From a virus: a stretch of 32,223 nt of DNA. The notes under the pieces are model-generated. The model had not been told where the DNA came from and did not search any database. It was given only the letters and a program-made list of their open reading frames with translations. The stretch covers positions 1 through 32,223 of IMG/VR virus record IMGVR_UViG_3300042691_009100. One strand, written 5' to 3'. The number at the start of each line of letters is the position of its first letter. The first letter of the stretch is position 1. Positions 3,393 to 32,191 of this stretch are shown here, one piece after another. Both the position numbers and the translations under genes were made by a program.

Positions 3393-3655
3393 AATCGACA
3401 GTCGTTACCGTAGGCACCACGCCAACTATAGTCGTGAATCCAGACGACCAGAATCGCTATATCTACGTGCAGATCGTCACGAGCGCGACGATCTACATCG
3501 GCGACAGTACGGTGACAACCGCGAATGGTCTCCCATTGGAAAAGCACACTTCTCCGCATGAGTTTTTCCTGCCGACCAAGCAAACTATGTACGCTGTAGT
3601 CACCTCACAAGTTGGAACTGCTGATCTGCGCGTTATGACGCCAGACGTTGACTGA
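3389..3655 (+). CDS. Small beta-rich virion-associated protein of unknown function
   Basis: This protein has 88 residues and a strand-rich pattern: TPTIVVNPDDQNRYIYVQI, then a segment with IYIGDSTVT and GLPLEKHTS, then YAVVTSQVGTADLRVMTP. Small proteins with an IYIG.S.VT..NG.PL core are frequent beside phage portal genes, and I read it as a small structural or decoration protein. The exact role is not established. ATG 3389 overlaps the portal stop (ATGA), with a purine-rich GAGGATGAGGAG upstream inside the portal gene. Confidence 0.7.
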   Translation: MKSTVVTVGTTPTIVVNPDDQNRYIYVQIVTSATIYIGDSTVTTANGLPLEKHTSPHEFFLPTKQTMYAVVTSQVGTADLRVMTPDVD

Positions 3656-3656
3656 C

Positions 3657-5264
3657 ATGCCGTACGGAATCAGCGACTCACAAGCCGACTGTGCAGGTTG
3701 GGCAACAGTCAAACAGAACGGTGACGGTTCGTTCGAAACGATCGGTTGTCACGACTCGAAGCAGGCTGCTGTTGATCAGATGGTTGCTGTGTCGCTTGCT
3801 GAGGAGATCGAGCCGCTCGGTGAGGTTGGTCGACGTGAACTGCGCGCTGAAGGTGAAGTGCTCGTCGTCGATATCGATGACACGTTGCTGCGCGACGGTG
3901 TGGAGCCGATGCAAGAAGTCATCGATGCGGTGAACATGAGCGAGTACCCAGTGATTCTGCTCACTGGTCGTTCACCTGACGACCGCGATGCGACGGTAAC
4001 CGCGCTCGAAGCCGCAGGTGTCGAGTACGTCAGGTTGATCATGAACGCCGACGCGAGCAGCGACGAGGAAGTAGCCGCGTACAAGAAGGACGCAATACAA
4101 CAGTTGATGAACGAGGGCTATGAGATCGACGCTTTCGTTGACAACAGCGAGATGAACCGCGCCGCTGTCGCCGAACTTGATGTCGATGTTTACACACCAG
4201 CGGAGTTCGTCGCCGACGAGATGGAACAAGAGCCAGAGGTTGATGAACCTGAGGTTGAGGAACCTGAAGAGCAACCGATGGAGTTCGAATCTCGTGCAGT
4301 CGACCTGAGCGCACCAGCGTACATGCGTGCATCCGCTGAGCGTGGGCTGCGTCTCCACGAGCAAGGTCTGTCTGGTGACGGTTTGGTGCCTGCCACTGTC
4401 GCCGATGCACGTCGTATGGCGCGCGGCGAGATCGGCGAAGCGAAGTGGCGCAAGATCGGACCGTGGATAGCGCGACACATTGACAACCTGGACGCTGTGC
4501 AAGGCGACGAGATCACACCTGGACTGGTGGCGATGTTGCTGTGGGGTGGCGGCTCCAACAAGATGACTGCACGTCGAGCGCAACAGTACGCCGAGCGTAT
4601 CGTCGCGCAACTGGACGCCGATAGTGGAACACGTAAAGCCAAAAAAGACGTGTATGCTAGCCGCAGTATGAACGAGACGTCGACTGTCCACTGGATTACT
4701 GACCAAGTCGATGAACGTCGATCTGTCGCGTACACCACGCTCGAACTGCGCGCCGAAGGTGACAGCAACACGCTCGTCGGATACGCTGCTGTGTTCGATT
4801 CGCCGAGCGAGCCGATGCCATTCGTCGAGTACGTACGTCGCGGCGCGTTCACCAAAACCTTGAACGACGGTGCAGACGTACGGCTGTTGATCGACCACGA
4901 AGGTGTACCGTTGGCGCGTAGCAAGTCTGGTACGTTGATGCTTGAAGAAGACGAGCGCGGGTTACGTGTCGAGGCAAGCCTCGACCCGATGAACCCAGAC
5001 GCACAGCGTGTGCTGTCCGCGATGCGTCGCGGTGACCTGTCGCAGATGTCGTTCGCATTCCGCACGGTCAAAGACTCCTGGAACAACGACCGTAGCGTGC
5101 GCGAACTCAAAGAGGTACAACTGTTCGACGTTAGCGTTGTAACCTACCCAGCGTATGAGGATACTGTTGTAAGCGTGCGCAACCGTCAGCCTGCTACCGT
5201 TAGCGTGTCAAGTGGTTTGACCGCTGCACGGCAACGTCAGATTCAGATCGCGCGACACCGCTAG
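3657..5264 (+). CDS. HAD-like phosphatase domain fused to prohead protease
   Basis: Numbered from ATG 3657, this 535-residue protein has four parts. Residues 5-45 carry a W.TVK..GDGSFETIGCHDSK motif that recurs in phage head proteins. Residues 67-185 look like a HAD phosphatase: VVDIDDTLL (D72, D74), LLTGRSP (T103), a lysine pair near 143 and FVDNS (D162). An acidic linker (190-210) leads to a helical domain (217-322, GLSGDGLVPATV...IGPWIARH). Residues 338-535 form an S78-type prohead protease with GYAAVFDS, H414, GDLSQMSF (S462/S465) and DVSVVTYPAY. It should cleave scaffold and capsid during maturation. TTG 3648 is an alternative start; ATG 3657 follows the previous stop directly. The usual protease alone is about 200 residues. 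Confidence 0.88.
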   Translation: MPYGISDSQADCAGWATVKQNGDGSFETIGCHDSKQAAVDQMVAVSLAEEIEPLGEVGRRELRAEGEVLVVDIDDTLLRDGVEPMQEVIDAVNMSEYPVILLTGRSPDDRDATVTALEAAGVEYVRLIMNADASSDEEVAAYKKDAIQQLMNEGYEIDAFVDNSEMNRAAVAELDVDVYTPAEFVADEMEQEPEVDEPEVEEPEEQPMEFESRAVDLSAPAYMRASAERGLRLHEQGLSGDGLVPATVADARRMARGEIGEAKWRKIGPWIARHIDNLDAVQGDEITPGLVAMLLWGGGSNKMTARRAQQYAERIVAQLDADSGTRKAKKDVYASRSMNETSTVHWITDQVDERRSVAYTTLELRAEGDSNTLVGYAAVFDSPSEPMPFVEYVRRGAFTKTLNDGADVRLLIDHEGVPLARSKSGTLMLEEDERGLRVEASLDPMNPDAQRVLSAMRRGDLSQMSFAFRTVKDSWNNDRSVRELKEVQLFDVSVVTYPAYEDTVVSVRNRQPATVSVSSGLTAARQRQIQIARHR

Positions 5265-14060: not shown

Positions 14061-14945
14061 ATGGCAACAGCACGTCGGCAGATTGGCTACGTCTCTACGC
14101 TGATTACGGAGAGCGTTCCGCTCATGTCGTATGGTACTGCGACTGGTGGCGTCGGTGCGCCAACCGATGTGACGATCAGCGGTGTGAACTATCAATACTT
14201 GACTTTCACCAGCACTGGTACTTTGACGATCACGAAGGCTGGACTGTTTGACGTTCTACTCTGTGGTGCAGGTGGTGGTGGTGGTGGAGTTCCGCAGGGT
14301 GGCAATAACGGTGGCGGTGGCGGTGCAGGTGGAATGACACTCGCAACTACCTATCTTGATGCAAACGTTACTGTGACTATCGGTGGTGGTGGTGCGGATA
14401 GCACGTCTGGGACTGGGACTTCTGTTGGTGGCACAACTCCAAGCGCGACAGTTGCGAACCTATCGTCATCTGGTGGTGGTCATGGTGGCTATCGTGTAAA
14501 CGACAACAGTACTCGCCCATCATCTGGCGGTTCTGGTGGCGGTGGCGGTGGCGGTCAATCACCTGGAACTATCGGGGCTATCTCTATCAGTGCCGAGGGT
14601 CGTGATGGTTTCGCTGGTGGCAGCACGACTGGGGTTGGTGGTGGTGGTGGCGGTTCTGGTGCAGCAGCGACCAACGCCAATGGTGGTGCTGGTGTAGATG
14701 TTGCTGGTTTCATCGGTGGTTCGTCGTTGTTCAAGGCTGCTGGCGGTGGAGGTGGCGCATACAACACTGGTGCAGGGTCTGGTGGCTCTTCTATCGGTGG
14801 TGCAGGTGGCAACAATGCGAATGGTTCTGCTGCTGCCGCGAACACAGCGTCGGGTGGCGGTGGTGCTGGTTCCAACACTGGTGGCGTTGCCCGTACTGGT
14901 GGCGCAGGTGGTTCAGGTATCGCGTATGTGAGGTTTAAGGTATGA
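14061..14945 (+). CDS. Glycine-rich tail adhesin-like protein A
   Basis: The 294-residue protein has a non-repetitive N-terminus (RRQIGYVSTLITESVPL, then TISGVNYQYLTFTSTGTLTI) and TKAGLFDVLLCGAGGGGGG. From there to the end it is dominated by Gly-rich loops with Ala/Ser/Asn, ending GGSGIAYVRFKV. This is the profile of the glycine-rich domain found in phage tail adhesins such as T4-type gp38, where loops on a poly-glycine core bind surface receptors. Receptor binding is inferred. It overlaps its paralogue downstream by ATGA. Confidence 0.7.
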   Translation: MATARRQIGYVSTLITESVPLMSYGTATGGVGAPTDVTISGVNYQYLTFTSTGTLTITKAGLFDVLLCGAGGGGGGVPQGGNNGGGGGAGGMTLATTYLDANVTVTIGGGGADSTSGTGTSVGGTTPSATVANLSSSGGGHGGYRVNDNSTRPSSGGSGGGGGGGQSPGTIGAISISAEGRDGFAGGSTTGVGGGGGGSGAAATNANGGAGVDVAGFIGGSSLFKAAGGGGGAYNTGAGSGGSSIGGAGGNNANGSAAAANTASGGGGAGSNTGGVARTGGAGGSGIAYVRFKV

Positions 14946-15856
14946 CTCGTTCTTACATGGGTTATGTTTCGTCGCTCACGACGAACACGGTGAACGTGAA
15001 CGGTTACGGGACTGCAACTGGTGGAACTGGTGTCACGGCTGTAACTATCAGCGGTGTGAACTATGAGTACACATCGTTTACTTCTTCTGGAACATTGACT
15101 GTTACCAAGTCTGGTTTGTTTGACGTTTTGATGGTCGGCGGTGGCGGTGCAGGTTCGGCAGCAAACAATGGTGGTGGTTCTGGTGGTGGTGCTGGCGGTG
15201 TCGCAAGTGGCACTGTTTATTTAGCATCAAATACGACTATCACTATCGGTGCAGGTGGAACGGCTGCAGCCAATACTGCAGGAGGACCAGGACAGGGCAA
15301 CAGTTCCGTGTGTGGAATCGCAGTCGGTGTTGGTGGTGGTCGTGGTGGTTCGGTTGATGTTGCAGCAAGTGTCGCTGTGGCACCTGCCGTTGGTGGTTCT
15401 GGTGCTGGCGGTATGGGTGCTACCAATAACGCATCAACTGGCGCAGCAGGAACACCGAGTCAAGGCAACGCTGGTGGCAACGGTTCGGCAACAACTAACG
15501 GTGCTGCTGGTGGTGGCGGTGGAGCGACGGCAGTCGGTGGCAACTTTAGTACTGGCAATGGTGGTGCTGGAGGTGCAGGCTACGACGTTTCGGCGTTCAT
15601 CGGCGGTTCCGCACTTTTCAAGGGTGGCGGAGGCGGAGGTGGCGCACGTTATTCATCCGCTGGTGGTGGAACTGGTGGCGCAGGTGGTTCGTCGGTAGGT
15701 GGTGCAGGCGGTTCATCGTCTGGAACTATCAACGGGTCTGCTGCTTCTGCGAATACTGGTGGCGGTGGCGGTGGTGGTTCCTTTGATGGAGGCGCATTGG
15801 GTGGTAGTGGTGGTTCGGGTGGCTCTGGAATCGCTTATGTCAGATGGAAGGTCTAG
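14942..15856 (+). CDS. Glycine-rich tail adhesin-like protein B (paralogue of A)
   Basis: The 304-residue protein is a clear paralogue of the one just upstream. Shared blocks are GYVS.L, GYGTATGG.G, TISGVNY.Y..FTS.GTLT.TK.GLFDVL, the poly-Gly loops, a DV.. FIGGS.LFK.GGGGGGA segment, and the end GGSGIAYVR.KV. The loops between these blocks differ strongly, as expected if they determine different receptor specificities. ATG 14942 overlaps the previous stop. A tandem duplication followed by divergence is the likely origin. Confidence 0.7.
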   Translation: MTRSYMGYVSSLTTNTVNVNGYGTATGGTGVTAVTISGVNYEYTSFTSSGTLTVTKSGLFDVLMVGGGGAGSAANNGGGSGGGAGGVASGTVYLASNTTITIGAGGTAAANTAGGPGQGNSSVCGIAVGVGGGRGGSVDVAASVAVAPAVGGSGAGGMGATNNASTGAAGTPSQGNAGGNGSATTNGAAGGGGGATAVGGNFSTGNGGAGGAGYDVSAFIGGSALFKGGGGGGGARYSSAGGGTGGAGGSSVGGAGGSSSGTINGSAASANTGGGGGGGSFDGGALGGSGGSGGSGIAYVRWKV

Positions 15857-19058: not shown

Positions 19059-19099
19059 GCCGCGTCGGGACGGGTTCTCGGACGGGTTGTTGGGAATGC
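19059..19099. repeat. Short direct repeat GGACGGGTT upstream of promoter P1
   Basis: GGACGGGTT occurs at 19068-19076 and 19080-19088, 12 nt apart, directly upstream of the -35 at 19100. It could be a protein-binding repeat, but it has no counterpart at the other four copies of the promoter. Confidence 0.3.
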
Positions 19100-20373: not shown

Positions 20374-20727
20374 ATGCAAGTGCACCGCATCTACAGGCTG
20401 CAAGTCTCAACACGGGCATTAGACGATCACGTAAGCAGACTTTATCAACGCATCGTCGTCGAACGTGAAAACGCAAAACGCATCTACACAGAGTTCTATC
20501 AGCATATAGACAACAACGAAGCGTTCATCATGATGATCAAAACGCTGAAGAACACTGCAACTGTGCGTGTCAGTCATGCCGCCATCATGGAACTGATCGA
20601 TGACCTGGCTTACCAGGCAGAGTTCAACGAGGACGACACCAGCCTGCGCAAGGCATGTCAACACGCGGTTCGCAGCCTTCGCAAACAGATGGCTCGCGAT
20701 CACGGCGTCGTCGTGGTTCCGAGATAA
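20374..20727 (+). CDS. Small helical hypothetical protein
   Basis: The protein has 117 residues if it starts at ATG 20374. GTG 20365 is an alternative that overlaps the previous stop by GTGA. It is mainly helical: IYRLQVSTRALDDHVSRLYQ, then VVERENAKRIYTEFYQHI, and DTSLRKACQHAVRSLRKQMA. I do not recognise a family or catalytic motif. Promoter P3 begins immediately after its stop codon. Confidence 0.6.
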   Translation: MQVHRIYRLQVSTRALDDHVSRLYQRIVVERENAKRIYTEFYQHIDNNEAFIMMIKTLKNTATVRVSHAAIMELIDDLAYQAEFNEDDTSLRKACQHAVRSLRKQMARDHGVVVVPR

Positions 20728-20730
20728 TGC

Positions 20731-20760
20731 TTGACACACATACCCTCGATATGGTAAGAT
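20731..20760 (+). promoter_or_regulatory. Promoter P3 (repeated type)
   Basis: TTGACA lies at 20731-20736 and TAAGAT at 20755-20760 with 18 nt between and TGG before the -10. ATG 20767 follows after 6 nt, and the second in-frame ATG is at 20791. This is the last copy before the purZ block, and it likely drives transcription into it. Confidence 0.85.
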
Positions 20761-20790
20761 ATATATATGGACAGAAAGGACAGCAATAAC

Positions 20791-21201
20791 ATGATCACCG
20801 ACTGGATAGCCGAACCAGCCTACTCACCAGAGGACGCAACCGCGAAGTTCAGGTGGTGGTGCGCTAACCACGGCGTCACCAAGGCATACGCAAACGTGAG
20901 CATTCGCGAACGTGCACTAATCCCATCCAACGTGCGAGTCGACATCGCAACGTTCTTCGCAAACGTGAACGCGACACCAGTGAAAGCAGAGGACCTGGTC
21001 ACACGCGTCATCAAGTGGTGCGAGCAGAACGTGTTTGCAGAAGTGACGACGCGCAAACTTGCTGAGGAGATGGGCTGCTCGCAGCACGTCGCACGTCGCA
21101 TCGTCAGCGACCTGCCTAACTACTTCAGGCGGCTGAACCAGTATAAGTATGAAGTGCGCGACTATAACATCGACAAAGCGCACGACCGCCGCACCGCGTA
21201 A
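20791..21201 (+). CDS. Winged-helix-like DNA-binding protein
   Basis: This protein of 136 residues contains a clear helix-turn-helix near residues 91-112: VTTRKLAEEMGCSQHVARRI, followed by a strand-like LNQYKYEVRDY that could form the wing. The N-terminal part (SPEDATAKFRWWCANHGVTK) resembles no family I know. It could be a regulator of the repeated promoters, which is speculation. ATG 20791 follows GAAAGGACAG. In-frame ATG 20767 would add MDRKDSNN. Confidence 0.65.
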   Translation: MITDWIAEPAYSPEDATAKFRWWCANHGVTKAYANVSIRERALIPSNVRVDIATFFANVNATPVKAEDLVTRVIKWCEQNVFAEVTTRKLAEEMGCSQHVARRIVSDLPNYFRRLNQYKYEVRDYNIDKAHDRRTA

Positions 21202-21231
21202 CACATCTAGGCTAAACTAGGGCAGGACACC

Positions 21232-21522
21232 ATGAAGTTCAGGGACAGGCGCGACGCTGCACGTCAAGCACGCATCGCACGCGAACAGCAAGAGCAGAAA
21301 GGACGCGACCGAGTCGCACAGTTCGCAGTCCTGGATGAGATCAACAAAGCGATCGAGGACGGCGACTACGTCACACTGACGTCACTACTGGAGATCGACT
21401 TCGCGTTGATCGCCGACATGACGATCACCGAATGGCAGCAAACCGTCATCGTCAGGCTGCACGACTTTTGCAGGTCGGTGGGCATCGAATATAAGTGGCA
21501 AACCAACAACGACAACGAATAG
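21232..21522 (+). CDS. Small charged helical protein
   Basis: The 96-residue protein begins MKFRDRRDAARQARIAREQ, a strongly basic helix, followed by LDEINKAIEDGDYVTLTSLL and a C-terminal part ending in NNDNE. No family is recognised. A possible -10, TAAACT at 21213-21218, precedes it, and AGGACACC gives a weak ribosome binding site. It is separated from purZ by 13 nt containing GAAAGG. Confidence 0.6.
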   Translation: MKFRDRRDAARQARIAREQQEQKGRDRVAQFAVLDEINKAIEDGDYVTLTSLLEIDFALIADMTITEWQQTVIVRLHDFCRSVGIEYKWQTNNDNE

Positions 21523-21535
21523 AAAGGCACATATC

Positions 21536-22663
21536 ATGACCATTCACGCCATCGTCGGCGGTCAGTTTGGCTCCGAAGCCAAAGGACACGTCGCCGCACA
21601 ACTGGCAACGCGACTGCGCACCAACACACTCGGCAAGAGGCTGCACCTCGTGCGCGTTGGTGGTAGCAACGCAGGACACAGCGCAGCCGCAGCAGACGGC
21701 ACGATCTGGGCGTTGCGCCAAGTTCCAGCAGCAGCCGTCGTCGACCTCGACGCCGCGCTCTATATCGCACAAGGAAGCGAGATCGACATCAGCGTACTGA
21801 CTAGCGAAGTTGACGCGCTCGACGCAGCAGGCTTCAACGTCAGCAGCCGACTCTACATCGACGCGAATGCGACCATCCTGGAGCCGCATCACATCGAACG
21901 TGAAAGCGGCAGCGACATCAACGCGCGCACAGGCTCAACGAGCAAGGGTATCGGAGCCGCACGCGCCGACCGACTGATGCGACTCGCACGCACCGCTGCT
22001 ATGGCGGTGGGCGACCTGTCCGATCTCGGTATGGTGTGTGAAACCGCAGGTATGTTCCAGGCTGCACACTTGCGGCAAGAGCACGTCGTCATCGAAGGCA
22101 CGCAGGGCTACGGTCTCGGGTTGCATACCCGTTTCTATCCGCAGACAACCAGCGGCGACTGCCGCACCGTCGACCTGCTCGCACAGATCGGCTATCTGCC
22201 GCTCAACCCGAGACAGCCACGCGAGATTCACACGTGGCTCGTGTTGCGCACCTACCCTATCCGCGTTGCAGGCAACAGCGGACCGATGGACAGCGACGAA
22301 CTCACCTGGGAGCAACTCGGTGAACGCACCGCAGGCTACGTCCAGCCAGAGCGCACCACGGTTACCAAGAAGATTCGACGTGTTGCAGAGTGGAACCCAG
22401 CCGTCGTCATGGAAGCGGTACAGGCAAACGGTGGAGTGGGCGACCACTTGCACCCGTGTCTGATGTTCGTCGACTACTTCGAGCCGAACCTCGCTAGTGA
22501 AACCGACGTGAGCAAACTGTTGCTCTACCCGAGCGCGCTGCGACAGATCAGACACTGCGAGATTCACATCGGCAAGCAGGCAGCGATGTACGGCACTTCC
22601 GCGAACACCGTCATGTTCAACAACACACAACTCGCCGCCACCGTGCGCGACTGGTCTATCTAA
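21536..22663 (+). CDS. purZ: PurZ: adenylosuccinate synthetase-like enzyme for 2-aminoadenine synthesis
   Basis: The 375-residue protein has the PurA-superfamily motifs. These are the P-loop region GGQFGSEAKGH (8-18), GGSNAGH (42-48), GSTSKGIGAARADR (133-146), EGTQGYGLGL (187-196) with YPQTTS, and TTVTKKIRR (274-282). Residue 13 is Ser, where PurA has the catalytic Asp of GDEGKGK; this substitution is the published hallmark of PurZ. PurZ condenses dGMP with aspartate to give the precursor of 2-amino-dAMP (dZMP). The length is close to phage PurZ and shorter than bacterial PurA (about 430). The downstream MazG-like gene supports the assignment. GAAAGGCAC precedes ATG 21536. Confidence 0.87.
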   Translation: MTIHAIVGGQFGSEAKGHVAAQLATRLRTNTLGKRLHLVRVGGSNAGHSAAAADGTIWALRQVPAAAVVDLDAALYIAQGSEIDISVLTSEVDALDAAGFNVSSRLYIDANATILEPHHIERESGSDINARTGSTSKGIGAARADRLMRLARTAAMAVGDLSDLGMVCETAGMFQAAHLRQEHVVIEGTQGYGLGLHTRFYPQTTSGDCRTVDLLAQIGYLPLNPRQPREIHTWLVLRTYPIRVAGNSGPMDSDELTWEQLGERTAGYVQPERTTVTKKIRRVAEWNPAVVMEAVQANGGVGDHLHPCLMFVDYFEPNLASETDVSKLLLYPSALRQIRHCEIHIGKQAAMYGTSANTVMFNNTQLAATVRDWSI

Positions 22664-22681
22664 ACAAGAAAGGGCAACAAC

Positions 22682-23005
22682 ATGCTAGGTAAGAGACAGA
22701 AACAACGACTCAACAACTGGTGGATTCAACACGCGACCGACGAAGTCGCCGCGATGTTGAAAAAACTGGACGAGTACGGAGCAGGCGACCTGCACGAGAT
22801 CGGCTACTCGATGGCGAAAGTCGCCAACCGAGAAGTCACACGTGAACAAGCATACGAACTCGGCATCATGTTCTATGCACTGGGCAAGATGCAACGCATC
22901 ATCAGCGCAGCAGAACAAGCACGCGAAGCATCAACCGACACGTGGCACGACCTCGCTGTTTACAGCAAGATGGTGCTCGCAAACCGTGCAGAGGTGATGC
23001 CATGA
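22682..23005 (+). CDS. MazG-like nucleotide pyrophosphohydrolase (candidate MazZ)
   Basis: This 107-residue, all-helical protein has the pattern of small MazG-like proteins of actinobacterial phages: LKKLDEYGAGDLHEIGYSMA (27-46), then EQAYELGIMFYALGKM (55-70) and DTWHDLAVYSKM (86-97). MazG-type enzymes hydrolyse NTPs or dNTPs to monophosphate and pyrophosphate. In Z-genome phages the MazZ branch turns dGTP into dGMP, the substrate of PurZ. The gene starts 18 nt after purZ with AAAGGGCAAC. Family membership is likely, and the dGTP specificity is inferred from position only. Confidence 0.65.
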   Translation: MLGKRQKQRLNNWWIQHATDEVAAMLKKLDEYGAGDLHEIGYSMAKVANREVTREQAYELGIMFYALGKMQRIISAAEQAREASTDTWHDLAVYSKMVLANRAEVMP

Positions 23006-23205
23006 ACAAAGGCTATGACGCAGTGAACTACTGCCACGCCGAAGTGCTGTACCGCGACCAGTTGCAGCAAGCACAACGACGCGCCAACATCTACGGCTAC
23101 ACCGAACTTGTCATCTGGCAAAGCGCAGACGGTACGCTCATCGACGAGCAGACCATCAAACCGAACACTGAACTGCAGACTGGAGCGCGCAACGTATGGC
23201 GTTGA
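23002..23205 (+). CDS. Small hypothetical protein
   Basis: This protein of 67 residues reads MNKGYDAVNYCHAEVLYRDQ and continues with a helix and a short strand pair, YTELVIWQSADGTLI. ATG 23002 overlaps the preceding stop (ATGA), and its 3' end overlaps the next gene by 10 nt, so it belongs to the same operon. I do not recognise a family. It may be an accessory to the nucleotide enzymes around it, by position only. Confidence 0.65.
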   Translation: MNKGYDAVNYCHAEVLYRDQLQQAQRRANIYGYTELVIWQSADGTLIDEQTIKPNTELQTGARNVWR

Positions 23206-24053
23206 TCTACCTCGCACATCCGATCGACAAGACGGGCGGCAACCCGATGGTCGTGGCGATGAGCATGCAGGACGAATTGCTGCAAAAAGACGGCATCGCA
23301 GTGTTCACACCAGCCGACGCATGGCAAGTGCGACCGCCACACGACGCACGAGTGCAACGCATCAACGAGCGTGCACTGCACGAGTGTGATGTTGTGTTGG
23401 TCTACTTACCAGCAGGTGTGTGGACGCGCGGTGTACCAGTTGAGATCACGATCGCTAACGAGCGCGGCATCCCAGTCGTGCTCGTGAGCGAGCAGGACGA
23501 GTCGTCACTGATCGAAACGTACTGGGCGAGCCACTACAACATCTACACGTACGAAGTCGACGAATATCGACAAGCGTGCGAGTGGGCAGCAACCCTGGGA
23601 CGCAACCGCGACAAGAAGAGCACGCTGAAGTTTGCGCGTTTCACTGGAGACAGCCACCAACTGTCGCAGGCGTTCACGGGTGACGCAGGGTTCGACCTGG
23701 CGTACAACGGTGACCAGCCGCTGGTGGTGGAGCCGCACACGATGGCACGCATTCCGACTGGTGTGTGTGTTGAGATGCCGCGCGGCATCTACGCTGTGCT
23801 CACTGGTCGCTCGTCGACGTTCTCCAAACGAAACCTGATCACACCGATGTCGGTGATCGATGAGGGCTTCCGAGGTGAACTGTTCGCGGTGGTGTGGAAC
23901 TTCGGAGACACACCGCAGGTGATCGAGCCGAAAGAGCGAGTCGTGCAACTGTTGCCAATGAACAACGTTGCTCGTGAGATAAACTGGCTACAGACTGCTG
24001 ATCTGTCACCGACCGATCGAGCCGACCATGGGTTCGGCTCATCGGGCAGGTGA
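23196..24053 (+). CDS. Nucleoside 2-deoxyribosyltransferase-like domain fused to dUTPase
   Basis: Residues 1-115 resemble nucleoside 2-deoxyribosyltransferases: IYLAHPID (4-11), ECDVVLVYLPAG (63-74) with the substrate Asp, and VEITIANERGIPVVLV (82-97), where E83 aligns with the catalytic Glu. Residues 143-285 form a trimeric-type dUTPase with all five motifs: DAGFDLA (163-169), GRSSTF (204-209), VIDEGFRGEL (220-229), RVVQLLP (248-254) and RADHGFGSSG (275-284). The second half hydrolyses dUTP to dUMP, keeping uracil out of DNA. The first half could exchange bases on deoxyribonucleosides or be a related hydrolase. Fusion of the two is unusual. Confidence 0.85.
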   Translation: MALIYLAHPIDKTGGNPMVVAMSMQDELLQKDGIAVFTPADAWQVRPPHDARVQRINERALHECDVVLVYLPAGVWTRGVPVEITIANERGIPVVLVSEQDESSLIETYWASHYNIYTYEVDEYRQACEWAATLGRNRDKKSTLKFARFTGDSHQLSQAFTGDAGFDLAYNGDQPLVVEPHTMARIPTGVCVEMPRGIYAVLTGRSSTFSKRNLITPMSVIDEGFRGELFAVVWNFGDTPQVIEPKERVVQLLPMNNVAREINWLQTADLSPTDRADHGFGSSGR

Positions 24054-24496: not shown

Positions 24497-25933
24497 ATGA
24501 CATCACCAAAACTAGCGAAAACAACACGAACAGGCAGAACATACAAACACCCAGTGACAGGCGCGGAATATCCGAGCGTCACTACAGTGCTCGGTATCGT
24601 CGGCAAAGGCGAGGCACTGAAACACTGGGCAGCAGGTGAAGTAGCCAAGTTCGCAGTCAACAACAAACAAGCGTGGCAAAGCCTCGACGACGCAGCAGCG
24701 ATCGACCTGCTGAAACGTGAACCGTTGCGATTCCTCGACCGTGCAGCATCACGCGGCACAGACGTACACGCACTCGCCGAAACATACGCCAAAACAGGAA
24801 CGATGCCACAGTGGGCTGACGAGATCAGCGGCTACGTCGCCGCGCTCAAACGGTTCTTCGACGAACATCAACCGCAGCCAGTGCTCGTCGAACACACCGT
24901 GTTCAACAGCGAGATCGGCTACGCAGGCTCGTTCGACATGGTGTGCAAACTACCGACGTTCGGCGACGAACTCGTGGTGCTCGACTACAAAACCAGCAAA
25001 GCGATCTACCCAGACGTCGCCGCACAACTCGCAGCGTACGCACACGGCACCGAGTACATCGACGACGACAAAGTACAGCCGATGCCTGCGATCGCACGCG
25101 GTGTCGCAGTGCGGCTCGCAGCAGACGCCACCTACGAAGTCATCGAATGCGATGTGAACGCAGGCTGGACGTACTTCAAAGCAGTGCGCGCAGTGTTCGA
25201 CATCCCGACCAAGCCGTTTCTCCTAGGTGACGTGCGACCGTCAGGAGAACGCAGCGACGAAGCACGCGCAGAAAAACGCGACTGGCTAATGAACCGAGTG
25301 CGGAAACTGAAAGAAGTGAACAGCGAAGCATTCGCCGCGTTCGCCGCACGCTGGTCACCAGCGATACCTACGTTCAAGTCGCAACACCAACACTCGTCGA
25401 TCGAACTGCGACAGATCGAACAACTGCTCGTCGAGATCGAACGCGACTTCAGCGTACCGTTCCACGAACACGTCGTACCGCCGAGCGTCAAACGACCACC
25501 ACAGATCGCGACACCAGCAGAGAAACCGATGCCGCCGAGCGACGACATCACCGTAGCGACAAACGACATCGAACTGCTGCGCATGCGACTCAACGACAGT
25601 GCGAACGCAGTGAAACTTACCGCGAAACGGCTAGCGAAAGAAGCAGCAGCAGTGAAACGCTCAGTGTCGCTCAGCGGCAAACCGTCGCTGCGTCGCTACA
25701 TGATCGTCAGCACCATGCTCGACTTCCTCGACGAGGACGACGGCAGCGGTGACACACTCGACGCCGCGCTACGTTACCTCGATATTCGAGGTGATGACAC
25801 GCTCGGCGCGGCAGTCGGCAACCTGGACATCGCCCAGGTACAACAGATGTCCAACGTGCTCGCACAACTGCGTGCAGGTACGTTGAACTTGCAATACATC
25901 AATGACACATTCACTATCACGGAAGGAAAGTAA
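24497..25933 (+). CDS. PD-(D/E)XK nuclease, RecB/Cas4-like exonuclease
   Basis: The 478-residue protein has the RecB-like nuclease series. It starts with YPSVTTVL and GTDVHALAETYA (residues about 89-100). The core follows: SEIGYAGSFDMVCKL with the metal-binding Asp, then ELVVLDYKTSK with the D-x-K pair, and AAQLAAYAHG. The C-terminal 200 residues are helical and unlike known domains. It probably processes DNA ends for recombination or replication, working with the OB-fold-like protein encoded next. No strong ribosome binding site precedes ATG 24497. Confidence 0.82.
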   Translation: MTSPKLAKTTRTGRTYKHPVTGAEYPSVTTVLGIVGKGEALKHWAAGEVAKFAVNNKQAWQSLDDAAAIDLLKREPLRFLDRAASRGTDVHALAETYAKTGTMPQWADEISGYVAALKRFFDEHQPQPVLVEHTVFNSEIGYAGSFDMVCKLPTFGDELVVLDYKTSKAIYPDVAAQLAAYAHGTEYIDDDKVQPMPAIARGVAVRLAADATYEVIECDVNAGWTYFKAVRAVFDIPTKPFLLGDVRPSGERSDEARAEKRDWLMNRVRKLKEVNSEAFAAFAARWSPAIPTFKSQHQHSSIELRQIEQLLVEIERDFSVPFHEHVVPPSVKRPPQIATPAEKPMPPSDDITVATNDIELLRMRLNDSANAVKLTAKRLAKEAAAVKRSVSLSGKPSLRRYMIVSTMLDFLDEDDGSGDTLDAALRYLDIRGDDTLGAAVGNLDIAQVQQMSNVLAQLRAGTLNLQYINDTFTITEGK

Positions 25934-25937
25934 CAAC

Positions 25938-26288
25938 ATGTCCATCAACTGGTCAGAGTTTGAGCGACCGACAGGCGACTTCAACAAGTGGAAGCCAGAA
26001 AACGAAGGTGACAGCATCAGCGGAGTGCTCACTGCGCTGCGCGTGGCTACGATGCCAGACGGTAACAAGTACCCGTCGCTCACCATCACCAAAGACGGAA
26101 CCGCCTACGAGGTGCTCGCATCACAGACTCAACTGCTGCGTCTGCTCGCAGACACCAAGCCCACCGTTGGCGACACCATCACGATCACGCACACACGTGT
26201 CGAGAAACTCGCAGGCAACAAGACGCTGAAGCACTTCGACGTCAAAGTGGCACGCGGTAAGAAGATCGACAGCGACGATCTCATCTGA
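25938..26288 (+). CDS. OB-fold-like protein, probable ssDNA-binding protein
   Basis: This 116-residue protein begins MSINWSEFERPTGDFNKWKP and is strand-rich: DSISGVLTALRVATMPDGN, SLTITKDGTAYEVLA, VGDTITITHTRVEKL and KTLKHFDVKVARGK. The pattern G.V........ G..YP.L.....G....V.......L......P..GD.I.I is that of small OB-fold-like proteins found beside phage recombination nucleases. ssDNA binding is inferred. ATG 25938 has the strong ribosome binding site GGAAGGAAAG, and its TGA overlaps the next ATG. Confidence 0.65.
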   Translation: MSINWSEFERPTGDFNKWKPENEGDSISGVLTALRVATMPDGNKYPSLTITKDGTAYEVLASQTQLLRLLADTKPTVGDTITITHTRVEKLAGNKTLKHFDVKVARGKKIDSDDLI

Positions 26289-26728
26289 TGCGCGACTTCA
26301 TCCACATGCGCGACAGCGATGCGCGTTGGATGGCGTACGCACTATGTAAGGGCAACACCGAGGTGGACTTCTTCCCAGACAGTATCACCTCGGTGGTTGC
26401 CACAAAAGCGATATCACTGTGCAACCGCTGCCCAGTACAAGACGCCTGTGCAAAGTACGCGATCGTCAACGACATTGAGTACGGTATCTGGGGTGGTTTA
26501 TCACCGCGCGCTAGACGTGAGATAGCATCATCACGTTCGACACGCGACCGTACACGCGAGATGCTCACATACAACACGTATAACAAACATCGTGCGGCAA
26601 ACCGCACCGACCCAGTGAAAGCAACAGCACGTGACCTCGGAATCTCAACAGCGACCGTCTACCACCACATCAGGCTCATCAAGTTCAAACTCATCTTCGA
26701 ACAACTGGGTGGTGATACACAGACGTGA
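26288..26728 (+). CDS. WhiB-like Fe-S protein with an added C-terminal HTH
   Basis: The 146-residue protein has four cysteines in WhiB arrangement, C20, C45, C48 and C54 (ALCKGN, LCNRCPVQDAC), which bind a [4Fe-4S] cluster. The turn GIWGGLSPRAR follows at 66-76. WhiB proteins usually work by binding the main sigma factor and are confined to Actinomycetota and their phages. After a basic linker, residues 108-134 (PVKATARDLGISTATVYHHI) form a helix-turn-helix that ordinary WhiB proteins lack. It may be a regulator that contacts both RNA polymerase and DNA. ATG 26288 overlaps the previous stop. Confidence 0.85.
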   Translation: MRDFIHMRDSDARWMAYALCKGNTEVDFFPDSITSVVATKAISLCNRCPVQDACAKYAIVNDIEYGIWGGLSPRARREIASSRSTRDRTREMLTYNTYNKHRAANRTDPVKATARDLGISTATVYHHIRLIKFKLIFEQLGGDTQT

Positions 26729-27508: not shown

Positions 27509-27884
27509 AGGAGACCGTGCAGAACGTGCACTCGCCACACTCCTCACCGAGACACTCGGCAAACCGATGCGCAGGATGTTGGGAGCAGGACGGAAAGACG
27601 ACATCGGCGACATCGACGGCATCGACGACACCGCGATACAAGTAAAACACTGGACAAACATCACCGCCGCCATCACCGAAGGCATCAAACAACTAACACA
27701 ACAGCAAACAAACAAAAAAGCCGAAAACGGTGTACTGTTCATCAAACACCGCACACACGGCTGGTTAGCAGTGACGACGTTAGAACAATGGACAAGGACA
27801 GAACATGAACGACAACATCACACTCGAATGGGCGATTCACTACGCGAAACTCGGCTACCGAGTTATCCCGATCAGACCACGTGA
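27486..27884 (+). CDS. Holliday-junction-resolvase-like nuclease (PD-(D/E)XK)
   Basis: This 132-residue protein starts NKTKGDRAERALATLLTETL, then RMLGAGRKDDIGDIDGIDD followed by TAIQVKHW. The series KG...E......L.........G.GR.DDIGDI......IQVKH matches small PD-(D/E)XK resolvases, with the acidic D-x-D and the Q-V-K strand. It should cut branched DNA during replication or packaging. A TAGCCT hexamer with TGG before it ends 6 nt from ATG 27486. The last 26 codons overlap the primase-polymerase gene by 80 nt. Confidence 0.7.
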   Translation: MANRNKTKGDRAERALATLLTETLGKPMRRMLGAGRKDDIGDIDGIDDTAIQVKHWTNITAAITEGIKQLTQQQTNKKAENGVLFIKHRTHGWLAVTTLEQWTRTEHERQHHTRMGDSLRETRLPSYPDQTT

Positions 27885-29946
27885 GAAACGACCACCGATC
27901 GCCGCATGGCAAGACGCCGCAACAACACAAACAGGAACCATCCAAGCATGGTGGACAGGACGGTACGCTGACCACGGCATCGGTATCGTCACAGGCACAC
28001 TCGACGACGGTACACGGTACATCGCGCTCGACCTCGACGAACACAACCCGACCAGCAGCGGAACCGCAACCCTGGACAGGCTCCAGGAACGCCACGGAAG
28101 GCTTCCCGAGACCGTCGAAGCCAAAACAGGTAGCGGCGGCACTCACCTGCTTTTCAGGCTAAAGGAAAGCCACGGAGACATCTCCAACGGGGCAGGAAGA
28201 CTGCTAGGTGCAGGAATAGATGTAAGAGCGGTCAACGCACAGATCGTCGTCGCACCAACCGTCCATCCGAACGGCAACGAATACCGCTGGGTAGACGGAC
28301 ACGCGCCAGGTGAGATCGAGATGGCAACCCTACCCGACTGGGTTGCCGACATCATCACCACCAAAGAACAACAAACCGCCACATCAACGGTGAACACACG
28401 CACCGAGGACGACGTCGACACACGCGCAGGTACAAGGTTCAACCGCGAAACACGGTGGGACGACCTGCTACTCAACGACGGGTGGACACCGCACCACACA
28501 GAGAACGACGTCTACTACTGGACACGACCCAACAAGTCAGTGCGCGACGGCGTCAGCGCAACCGTCAACCACAACGGCAACGACAACCTCACCGTGTTCA
28601 CAACATCGATCAGCAACCTACCGCCAGGTTCATACGACAGGTTCGGCTACTGGACACAAACACGACACAGCGGCGACTTCAAAGAAGCAGCACGCCAACT
28701 CAACGCACAAAACGACCAACAGATCGCACAATGGGTGTCCACCATCCAGTCCGAACAACCACCACAACTGGTCACACCAGAGAACCGAAACGACGACCCA
28801 CTCACCACGTGGTACGTCGACTGGCAGAAACTGTGGACCGACGACACCACCGACCAAGAATGGCTCATCGAACCCATCCTCGCCAAAGGACGAGCACACG
28901 CACTGTACGCAGGAGCAAAAAGTGGCAAAAGCCTGCTACTGCTCGAACTTGCAGCCGCGCTCGCATCAGGACGACCAGTGCTCGGCAAACCAGCACAACC
29001 ACCGATCGACGTGCTATACATCGACTTCGAGATGACAGCAGCAGACGTACGCGACCGACTCGACGCATTCGGCTACAGCATCGACGACAACCTCACAAAA
29101 CTGCACTACGTGCTCCTACCATCGATCGCAGGTCTAGACACACAAGAAGGAGCACGCGCAGTAATCGCCGCCATCAAAGCAACCAACAGCAAACTCGTCA
29201 TCATCGACACCACAGCACGAGCAGTAGAAGGAGAAGAAAACGACGCCGACACCATGCGCGCGTTCTACCGCTGGTCAGGCGTCAACATGAAGTCACTCGG
29301 CGTCACCTGGATACGAGCAGACCACGCAGGCAAAGACACCAGCAAAGGACAACGAGGAACCAGCGCAAAAAACGACGACGTCGACGTGGTGTGGAAGTTC
29401 ACGAAACGCAGCCTCACCTCGATCTTGATCGAATCCACACACCGACGTATGCAGTGGGTTCCAGACAAAGTCGAACTGGAACTGCGCGAGATCGACGGCA
29501 AACTGTCTCACCACCTGCTCGGTGACGAGTTCAGCGACGCCGCGATCACCGCAGCCGCCGACCTCAACATGTGTAAAGCACCCATCGACATCACCATACG
29601 CGCAGCCAGATCACTACTCAAAGAACACGACATCAAGTGTGGTAACGACATCCTTGCGCAGGCTATCAAACTACGCAAACAGAAAGCGGCAAACGGCAAC
29701 GTCGACGCATGGCTAGGGACCATCGACGAGAGCGTAACAAAAGACGGAACACGTTCGGAACAAACCGTAACAAACGACCTGCGTAACACGCGCGGAACAA
29801 ACCTTCCGACCGCGTCGTTACGCGGCGTAACACGTTCGGAACACGACGTAACACACTCTAGCGGTTCTGTTACGGCTGTTCCGCGCTCTATAGAGCGGAA
29901 CGCCAACGGAACACCACAGTTCGACGACCTGGACGAGATATTCTAG
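27805..29946 (+). CDS. Primase-polymerase (AEP) fused to RepA-like helicase
   Basis: The 713-residue protein has an N-terminal bifunctional primase-polymerase domain: GIGIVTG (58-64), YIALDLDEH with the metal-binding D76 and D78, GSGGTHLLFRL with H114, and GIDVRAVNAQIVVAP (137-151). Residues 340-560 form a RecA-fold ATPase of the RepA type: GAKSGKS Walker A (370-376), VLYIDFEM, LVIID Walker B (464-468) and the ADHAGKD.....RGTSAK motif. It is the only polymerase-like protein visible, so it probably primes, copies and unwinds the phage DNA. ATG 27805 follows AAGGACAG. The last 70 residues are low complexity and lie over a dense repeat cluster. Confidence 0.88.
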   Translation: MNDNITLEWAIHYAKLGYRVIPIRPREKRPPIAAWQDAATTQTGTIQAWWTGRYADHGIGIVTGTLDDGTRYIALDLDEHNPTSSGTATLDRLQERHGRLPETVEAKTGSGGTHLLFRLKESHGDISNGAGRLLGAGIDVRAVNAQIVVAPTVHPNGNEYRWVDGHAPGEIEMATLPDWVADIITTKEQQTATSTVNTRTEDDVDTRAGTRFNRETRWDDLLLNDGWTPHHTENDVYYWTRPNKSVRDGVSATVNHNGNDNLTVFTTSISNLPPGSYDRFGYWTQTRHSGDFKEAARQLNAQNDQQIAQWVSTIQSEQPPQLVTPENRNDDPLTTWYVDWQKLWTDDTTDQEWLIEPILAKGRAHALYAGAKSGKSLLLLELAAALASGRPVLGKPAQPPIDVLYIDFEMTAADVRDRLDAFGYSIDDNLTKLHYVLLPSIAGLDTQEGARAVIAAIKATNSKLVIIDTTARAVEGEENDADTMRAFYRWSGVNMKSLGVTWIRADHAGKDTSKGQRGTSAKNDDVDVVWKFTKRSLTSILIESTHRRMQWVPDKVELELREIDGKLSHHLLGDEFSDAAITAAADLNMCKAPIDITIRAARSLLKEHDIKCGNDILAQAIKLRKQKAANGNVDAWLGTIDESVTKDGTRSEQTVTNDLRNTRGTNLPTASLRGVTRSEHDVTHSSGSVTAVPRSIERNANGTPQFDDLDEIF
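29733..29901. repeat. Iteron-like repeat cluster inside the 3' end of the primase-helicase gene
   Basis: CGTAAC occurs at 29733, 29766, 29782, 29826 and 29847, and its complement GTTACG at 29817 and 29869. A perfect 15-nt direct repeat, AACACGTTCGGAACA, lies at 29748-29762 and 29829-29843. A near-palindrome with centre CGCTCTATAGAGCG and flanks GTTC/GAAC covers 29878-29901. This density in 170 nt is far above chance and is what an initiator-binding region or replication origin looks like. Origin function is inferred. Confidence 0.6.
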
Positions 29947-31702: not shown

Positions 31703-31709
31703 TAAGTGA

Positions 31710-31715
31710 TAAGAT
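31710..31715 (+). promoter_or_regulatory. Possible -10 element (TAAGAT) placed for a leaderless start
   Basis: TAAGAT, with TGA before it, ends 7 nt before ATG 31723. The hexamer is the same as in the five repeated promoters, but no TTGACA lies at the right distance. No Shine-Dalgarno sequence precedes the ATG. Confidence 0.4.
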
Positions 31716-31722
31716 GCTCGTC

Positions 31723-31896
31723 ATGGACGAGCAAACAACGAAACAACTGCGACCGTGTGGAACATATGCGGCAGCACGACGCCACCAGCGGAAGCATGAA
31801 CCCATGTGCACTGCTTGCAAAGCGGCTATCGCCGCAAGACAGCGAGCGTTCTACCACCGTCGCAAAGCGGAACGCGCCACACGTGCCGATTCTTAG
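31723..31896 (+). CDS. Small zinc-finger-like protein
   Basis: The 57-residue protein reads MDEQTTKQLRPCGTYAAARR, then HQRKHEPMCTACKAAIAAR and a basic tail. The pattern CGTY.....H.R..E..C..CK.A is familiar in small actinobacterial phage proteins and predicts one zinc site. Function is unknown, though such genes often sit near HNH endonucleases. ATG 31723 has no ribosome binding site; a -10-like TAAGAT lies 7 nt upstream. Confidence 0.65.
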   Translation: MDEQTTKQLRPCGTYAAARRHQRKHEPMCTACKAAIAARQRAFYHRRKAERATRADS

Positions 31897-32191
31897 ACCT
31901 TGCATCGAATGCAAGCGACTGAATGAGCAGACACGCTGCACAGCGTGCGAACGCAGACATCAAGCAGTTAGGAACATGAGACGTGAGCACTACCGTGGCA
32001 GTTACCGCAAGAACGCTAAACAAGTGCGCGACACAGCAGTGTTGTGTGCGATCTGCGGAAAAGGTGCGAAACCTGGCGACCCATGGACTGCCGACCACCT
32101 CATACCTGGCGACCCACAGTCACCGCTGCGTGCCGCGCACAGGTCGTGTAACTCAAGTCGAGGCGCGCGCACTCACACATCCACACGATGA
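31883..32191 (+). CDS. HNH endonuclease
   Basis: This 102-residue protein starts at GTG 31883, overlapping the previous gene by 14 nt. It has two zinc knuckles, PCIECKRLNEQTRCTACERR and LCAICGKGAKPGDP, then the HNH core WTADHLIPGDP with the D-H pair and a final RAAHRSCNSSRG containing the Asn. Phage HNH proteins of this size often act with the terminase in DNA packaging. If the window closes to a circle, this gene lies about 160 nt before terS. The start codon is uncertain, because no ribosome binding site stands out. Confidence 0.8.
   Translation: MPILRPCIECKRLNEQTRCTACERRHQAVRNMRREHYRGSYRKNAKQVRDTAVLCAICGKGAKPGDPWTADHLIPGDPQSPLRAAHRSCNSSRGARTHTSTR

Follow-up and report, generated by a model that had tools for sequence, protein, structure and literature searches.

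The stretch of DNA analyzed here (the window) is IMG/VR record IMGVR_UViG_3300042691_009100, 32,223 nt (32.2 kb) from an uncultivated virus, which IMG/VR classes as linear and possibly a fragment, with no completeness estimate given. A small terminase gene (terS, 129-641, + strand) marks the left end of the genome and is followed by the large terminase gene (613-2082, +; PHROG 9, E 1e-107), with an HNH endonuclease gene (31706-32191, +) at the right end. The window and three relative contigs all begin 117-136 nt before terS, at the physical left end. A 34 kb relative stops after the HNH gene, at the point equivalent to the end of the window, and a relative contig that spans the junction has its HNH homologue ~263 nt before terS. 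Based on these shared left and right ends and the contig joining HNH to terS, the window looks like an essentially whole, cos-type actinophage genome of ~32 kb. No close DNA relatives were found among isolated phages, the best match showing 65-75% identity over at most ~6% of a 5 kb query, and no tRNA genes or Rfam RNAs were found in the window.

A WhiB-type regulator gene (26288-26728, +; PF02467, E 1.9e-17) is a marker of an actinobacterial host, and every phage isolate matching x107, the gene next to purZ0 described below, is an actinophage. Both observations bear out the proposal, made in an earlier note on this DNA, that the phage has an actinobacterial host. The replication/recombination module includes a PD-(D/E)XK exonuclease gene (24497-25933, +; PHROG 298, E 6e-43). 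Elsewhere, two tandem genes (14061-14945 and 14942-15856) encode paralogous tail-region proteins, both of PHROG 2295, and the head maturation protease (3648-5264) has a weak polynucleotide-kinase-like stretch (residues 83-182) ahead of its protease domain.

The genes of a 2-aminoadenine (Z) operon span 20767-24053, downstream of a TTGACA ... TAAGAT repeat (20723-20793, +) of direct-repeat family D1, which, judged by its consensus match, would head the operon as a putative promoter. The five copies of this repeat, 71 nt each (at 19092, 19971, 20723, 30005 and 30364), end at start codons, and these promoter-plus-leader repeats are reminiscent of start-associated repeats in other actinophages. 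The first operon gene, a 144-aa ORF (20767-21201, +), had no match in a Pfam search and has homologues of 35-42% identity at the same position in relatives; the second, a 96-aa ORF (21232-21522, +), has a weak homologue in relative contig L011 and precedes purZ0 (21536-22663, +). The cassette then runs purZ0, x107 (22682-23005, +), a small ORF and a dmtZ-dutZ fusion (23196-24053, +). The x107 gene starts 18 nt past the purZ0 stop, and the small ORF (67 aa, 23002-23205, +; homologues in contigs L009-L015, 37-52%) has an ATGA overlap with x107 and a 10-nt overlap with the dmtZ-dutZ start.

The purZ0 gene is an intact ATG ORF of 375 aa, a predicted 2-aminoadenylosuccinate (dSMP) synthetase. The motifs on which the gene had originally been called purZ (GSEAKG with Ser13 for the catalytic Asp, GGSNAGH, GSTSKGIG, EGTQGYG and TTVTKKIRR) are all present. 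The ORF matched PF00709 (adenylosuccinate synthetase, E 4e-28) and PHROG 1211 ("2-aminooxy adenylosuccinate synthetase", E 2e-72), and its homologues are 39-68% identical. In the PDB search its best match by far was 7vf6, a PurA-like adenylosuccinate synthetase (E 1.6e-65), ahead of the PurZ of phiVC8 (2e-26) and of S-2L (7e-18). The window shares its GSExKG motif with 86 of the 87 other viral PurZ0 rows, the remaining row not being parsed, and GDEGKG occurred in 28 of 29 PurA rows. The residue in the catalytic motif was Ser in all parsed viral PurZ0 and Asp in all parsed PurA. In a tree of 83 sequences, one PurZ0 clade of 44 rows including the window had an SH-aLRT support of 100, as did the PurA clade, and the PurZ of phiVC8, S-2L and DMU1 formed a separate clade (98). 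By sequence, then, the window protein is PurZ0, the predicted ATP-type Z synthetase of actinophages; its subclade, the 7vf6 match and Ser13 uphold the purZ identification, and the tree comparison that had been proposed as a check does not group it with host PurA. We give almost no credence to an ordinary, IMP-using, host-type PurA acquired by the phage, which would fit the membership of the PF00709 superfamily but not the replacement of the catalytic Asp by Ser13, the fully supported PurZ0 and PurA clades or the position of the gene amid a dmtZ-dutZ cassette.

Two genes that the earlier note omitted are the dmtZ-dutZ fusion and a PrimPol gene (27805-29946, +). The fusion encodes an NDT-type N-terminal half and, from about residue 140 on, a dUTPase-fold C-terminal half (PF00692, E 6.5e-22). 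A DmtZ-DutZ of the same architecture has been characterized from phage Wayne, and the fusion fills the role of dATP/dGTP hydrolase in published PurZ0 phages: DutZ converts dATP, dGTP and dUTP to monophosphates, and DmtZ converts dAMP to adenine and is also able to move deoxyribose phosphate onto Z (PMC12884076). Residues Y5, D11, P39, N57, G79 and E83 of the window DmtZ correspond to Y6, D12, P57, N77, G99 and E103 of the Ghobes protein, and the Tyr/Asn/Glu triad of NDT enzymes (Y5, N57, E83) is kept, together with D11 and P39. The window protein has E102 at the position of the Ghobes lid residue W124, a Trp also missing in the five nearest relatives examined, and K12 at the position of the phosphate-contacting Gln13. 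As the lid Trp was proposed from modeling and its requirement was not demonstrated (PMC12884076), the N-terminal half is likely to belong to DmtZ despite this substitution. In the other half, a GRSS motif was found in all eight aligned DutZ sequences versus PRSG in E. coli Dut, a comparison confined to these proteins.

The PrimPol has an AEP primase-polymerase domain (residues 10-179) and a RepA-like AAA helicase, matches PF09250 (E 4e-39) and carries the DxD, GxH and D motifs. A model of its AEP domain (pLDDT 89.7) matched the pRN1 PrimPol by Foldseek (E 1e-7), with the S-2L PrimPol (6zp9) weaker, at rank 7. No other gene of polymerase type was found in the window: no family-A polymerase (PF00476) was detected there even at E 10, and the remaining plausible-gene ORFs of >350 aa are structural, nuclease or purZ0. 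The ten nearest PurZ0 contigs likewise all have a Prim-Pol and no PF00476 match, and Pol I is absent in 28 of 50 PurZ0 records, including 19 viral contigs of at least 30 kb. On a bootstrapped tree there are five changes of the Pol I label, of which well-supported branches force at least two, and PurZ0 records without Pol I thus lie on at least two separate branches. The large L079-L135 set of PurZ0 contigs, which resemble one another, makes up a second Pol I-less lineage; its members encode PrimPol, have dmtZ and dutZ as separate genes and often a purB-like gene as well, and Pol I was absent from those tested. A Z-selective Pol I, DpoZ-1, is present in published PurZ0 phages (PMC12884076), and PolA together with PrimPol is the usual complement of Z phages (PMC8599892). 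A 2026 survey of PurZ0 phages reported a perfect match with Z-selective Pol I and nowhere mentions PrimPol. In the window phage PrimPol may serve only as a primase, with host Pol III doing most of the synthesis. The dmtZ gene was present in 24 of 25 Pol I-less and 15 of 25 Pol I-bearing PurZ0 contigs (Fisher 0.005); we claim no tie between Pol I loss and dmtZ retention, as phylogenetically independent pairs gave it no support and the difference was not significant given the tree.

Together, the observed gene identities, conserved catalytic residues, synteny and absence of Pol I make us rather confident that the window represents a Z-DNA actinophage with a PurZ0-type cassette, one that would exclude A by destroying dATP and not by polymerase choice. 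The enzyme activities that we infer, and with them the presence of Z in the phage DNA, would work as follows. PurZ0 would join dGMP and aspartate to give dSMP, which a host lyase and kinases would convert to dZMP and then dZTP. The DutZ half would hydrolyze dATP to dAMP and dGTP to dGMP, which would deplete the dATP of the cell and supply PurZ0, and the DmtZ half would break dAMP down to adenine, so that dATP could not be rebuilt; it could also make dZMP from free Z base. Copying of the genome would fall to the phage PrimPol, the host replicase or both, with no selection between bases. As there is no Z-selective Pol I, A would probably be excluded by draining of the dATP pool, as in S-2L, where a purge by DatZ is combined with a non-selective PrimPol (PMC8065100).

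Alternatively, the cassette might give a partial A-to-Z swap, in which the PrimPol or host replicase inserts a mixture according to the dATP/dZTP ratio, blunting restriction enzymes. The absence of DpoZ, the lack of a Trp lid in the window DmtZ and the lack of Z/A selectivity in the S-2L PrimPol (PMC8065100) would each suit such an outcome, but S-2L fully replaces A using that same non-selective PrimPol (PMC8065100), and we consider partial replacement improbable. The retention of dmtZ, and with it dATP removal, in nearly all the Pol I-less contigs also argues against it, a counterpoint weakened by the presence of dmtZ in Pol I-bearing lineages and the non-significant difference on the tree.

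Under the preferred reading, exclusion of A by dATP destruction, x107, whose slot is held by DUF5664 in Arthrobacter phages, would probably add an extra (d)NTP pyrophosphohydrolase step. The gene encodes a 107-aa, all-helical protein of a PurZ0-linked family and can be taken as real because it is conserved in relatives (51-69% identity to the nearest). Searches by tblastn found it in 31 phage records (Microbacterium 18, Gordonia 6, Streptomyces 5, Curtobacterium 1, Micrococcus 1); the numbers of purZ matches equaled those of x107 for the first four hosts, and Olihed, the Micrococcus record, also has purZ. The protein is a bare domain in the window, whereas in the phage isolates inspected it forms the C-terminal end of larger proteins (180-315 aa) encoded right after purZ0. 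A pattern scan of IMG/VR gave 25 x107 loci, all with purZ0. Conversely, x107 lay within 1.8 kb of purZ0 (median 75 nt) in all 77 viral PurZ0 contigs that could be tested, namely those of 80 with at least 900 nt downstream of purZ0; these are no random sample of PurZ0 phages, as the 80 were picked by similarity to the window and its relatives. No x107 without purZ0 was seen among the fetched loci examined, none at 45 cellular purZ-like loci, and none in 397 actinobacterial genomes, a set that had no positive control and is hence weak. In Arthrobacter phage Glenn the x107 slot is occupied by a DUF5664 gene (PF18909, E 2e-31).

The earlier note had taken this neighbor of purZ0 to be a MazG-like protein acting as a MazZ-type dGTP pyrophosphohydrolase. 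A real ORF does lie directly downstream and its predicted fold, resembling NMAD1/DUF6378, loosely supports such a role; a MazG sequence match was not found. Searches of Pfam and PHROGs assigned no family even at E 1-5, bar one chance-level PHROG match, and hhalign to MazG (E 0.13) did no better than shuffled controls. Membership of MazG, MazZ, DUF550 or DUF5664 by sequence was accordingly rejected, with nothing above shuffled controls in Pfam, PHROG, PDB or profile-profile comparisons. Pfam DUF6378 was matched by 2 of 64 members (best E 0.037), and hhalign gave E 0.014 for DUF1599 and 0.35 for DUF6378, all below significance, the x107 profile not joining DUF6378 above shuffled controls; the closest profile was that of a DUF1599-like gene of contig L155 (hhalign E 5e-4, a single pair). 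The AlphaFold model is all-helical (pLDDT 93.6) and had no PDB match with E<1 by Foldseek, DCTPP1 and RS21-C6 being weak. Among viral models it matched its own family and then NMAD1, DUF6378 and DUF1599 proteins at probabilities of 0.75-1.00, with E values of only ~0.05-1.2. The NMAD1 (DUF1599)/DUF6378 phage proteins share with x107 this predicted fold and the pattern YG ... K..R ... DT..D...Y, but their sequence match to it is never significant. Because sequence profiles fail and only the predicted fold points there, "MazG-like" is a fold-level guess.

In 64 x107 sequences, W14, K28, Y32, G41, K69, R72, D86, D90, Y94 and M97 are invariant and E31, D36 and E59 nearly so; K28, Y32, K69, R72, D86, D90 and Y94, together with the three acidic residues, look like a metal/phosphate site. 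Our preferred inference, held with moderate confidence, is that x107 is a candidate (d)NTP pyrophosphohydrolase of NMAD1/DUF6378 type. A less likely, but still serious, option is that x107 is no enzyme and instead binds or regulates PurZ0 (or DmtZ-DutZ), channeling dGMP. The strict one-gene linkage to purZ0, the varying N-terminal extensions among phage isolates and the missing sequence match to known hydrolases would agree with a binding partner; the charged invariant and near-invariant residues, the nucleotide-modification-associated proteins as nearest predicted folds and the occupation of the slot in Arthrobacter phages by DUF5664, a proven dATP/dGTP hydrolase, favor an enzyme.

The PurZ0 phages compared (Gordonia Ghobes, Arthrobacter Wayne and Glenn, Streptomyces Galactica and Microbacterium FireCastle) resemble the window in their actinobacterial hosts and in having purZ0, then an x107 or DUF5664 gene, then dutZ, usually fused to dmtZ. 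They all have Pol I (DpoZ-1), which the window and its nearest clade lack. S-2L (purZ-mazZ-datZ) follows the same logic and has the same order of synthetase, ~106-aa helical protein and dATP-destroying enzyme, and likewise a PrimPol and no DpoZ (PMC8065100). However, its synthetase belongs to the PurZ subclade and not to PurZ0, its MazZ has no detectable sequence homology to x107, its dATP-destroying DatZ is a metal-dependent phosphohydrolase of a different family from DmtZ-DutZ, and the two PrimPols are only distantly similar.

Phages with Z-DNA are the clearest natural example of a genome-wide base swap. Z-DNA, PurZ0 and DmtZ-DutZ are already published; in the literature searched, with the original PurZ0 paper outside that scope, we found no description of the x107 family, of its strict linkage to purZ0 or of PurZ0 phages without Pol I. 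We tentatively propose, as a joint claim about as apt to fail as to hold, that x107 is a new purine (d)NTP pyrophosphohydrolase family, sequence-unrelated to MazZ, DUF550 and DUF5664 and, except in Arthrobacter phages, an obligate PurZ0 partner, and that a large uncultured PurZ0 group makes Z-DNA without a Z-selective polymerase, having reached the pool purging of S-2L independently. The Pol I-less genomes make it testable whether a dATP drain alone is enough for A exclusion, as in S-2L. The presence of x107 in every testable purZ0 contig sampled, and its absence from all sampled sequences that lack purZ0, is a strong lead to an unrecognized step, also useful for Z-DNA production in laboratory strains.

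Related genes were seen elsewhere. A PurB-like lyase is common in PurZ0 phages (L003:17829-19214, L004:4062-5195 and many of the PurZ0 contigs from IMG); the window lacks one and would depend on that of its host. Besides a canonical GDEGKG PurA, at least 28 bacterial genomes from several phyla (within L138-L182, e.g., L144, L166 and L172) encode another PurA-like protein, whose motif is of the GSExKG type and which the tree places near PurZ/PurZ0 and away from PurA. In a Bacteroidetes MAG (JAMNYO010000107.1, L155:5937-11716), genes for Pol I and for purZ-like, dutZ-like, DUF1599-like and PurB-like proteins lie in a row that resembles a further, separate cassette for Z-DNA; an NDT-like domain is apparently fused to the DUF1599-like one.
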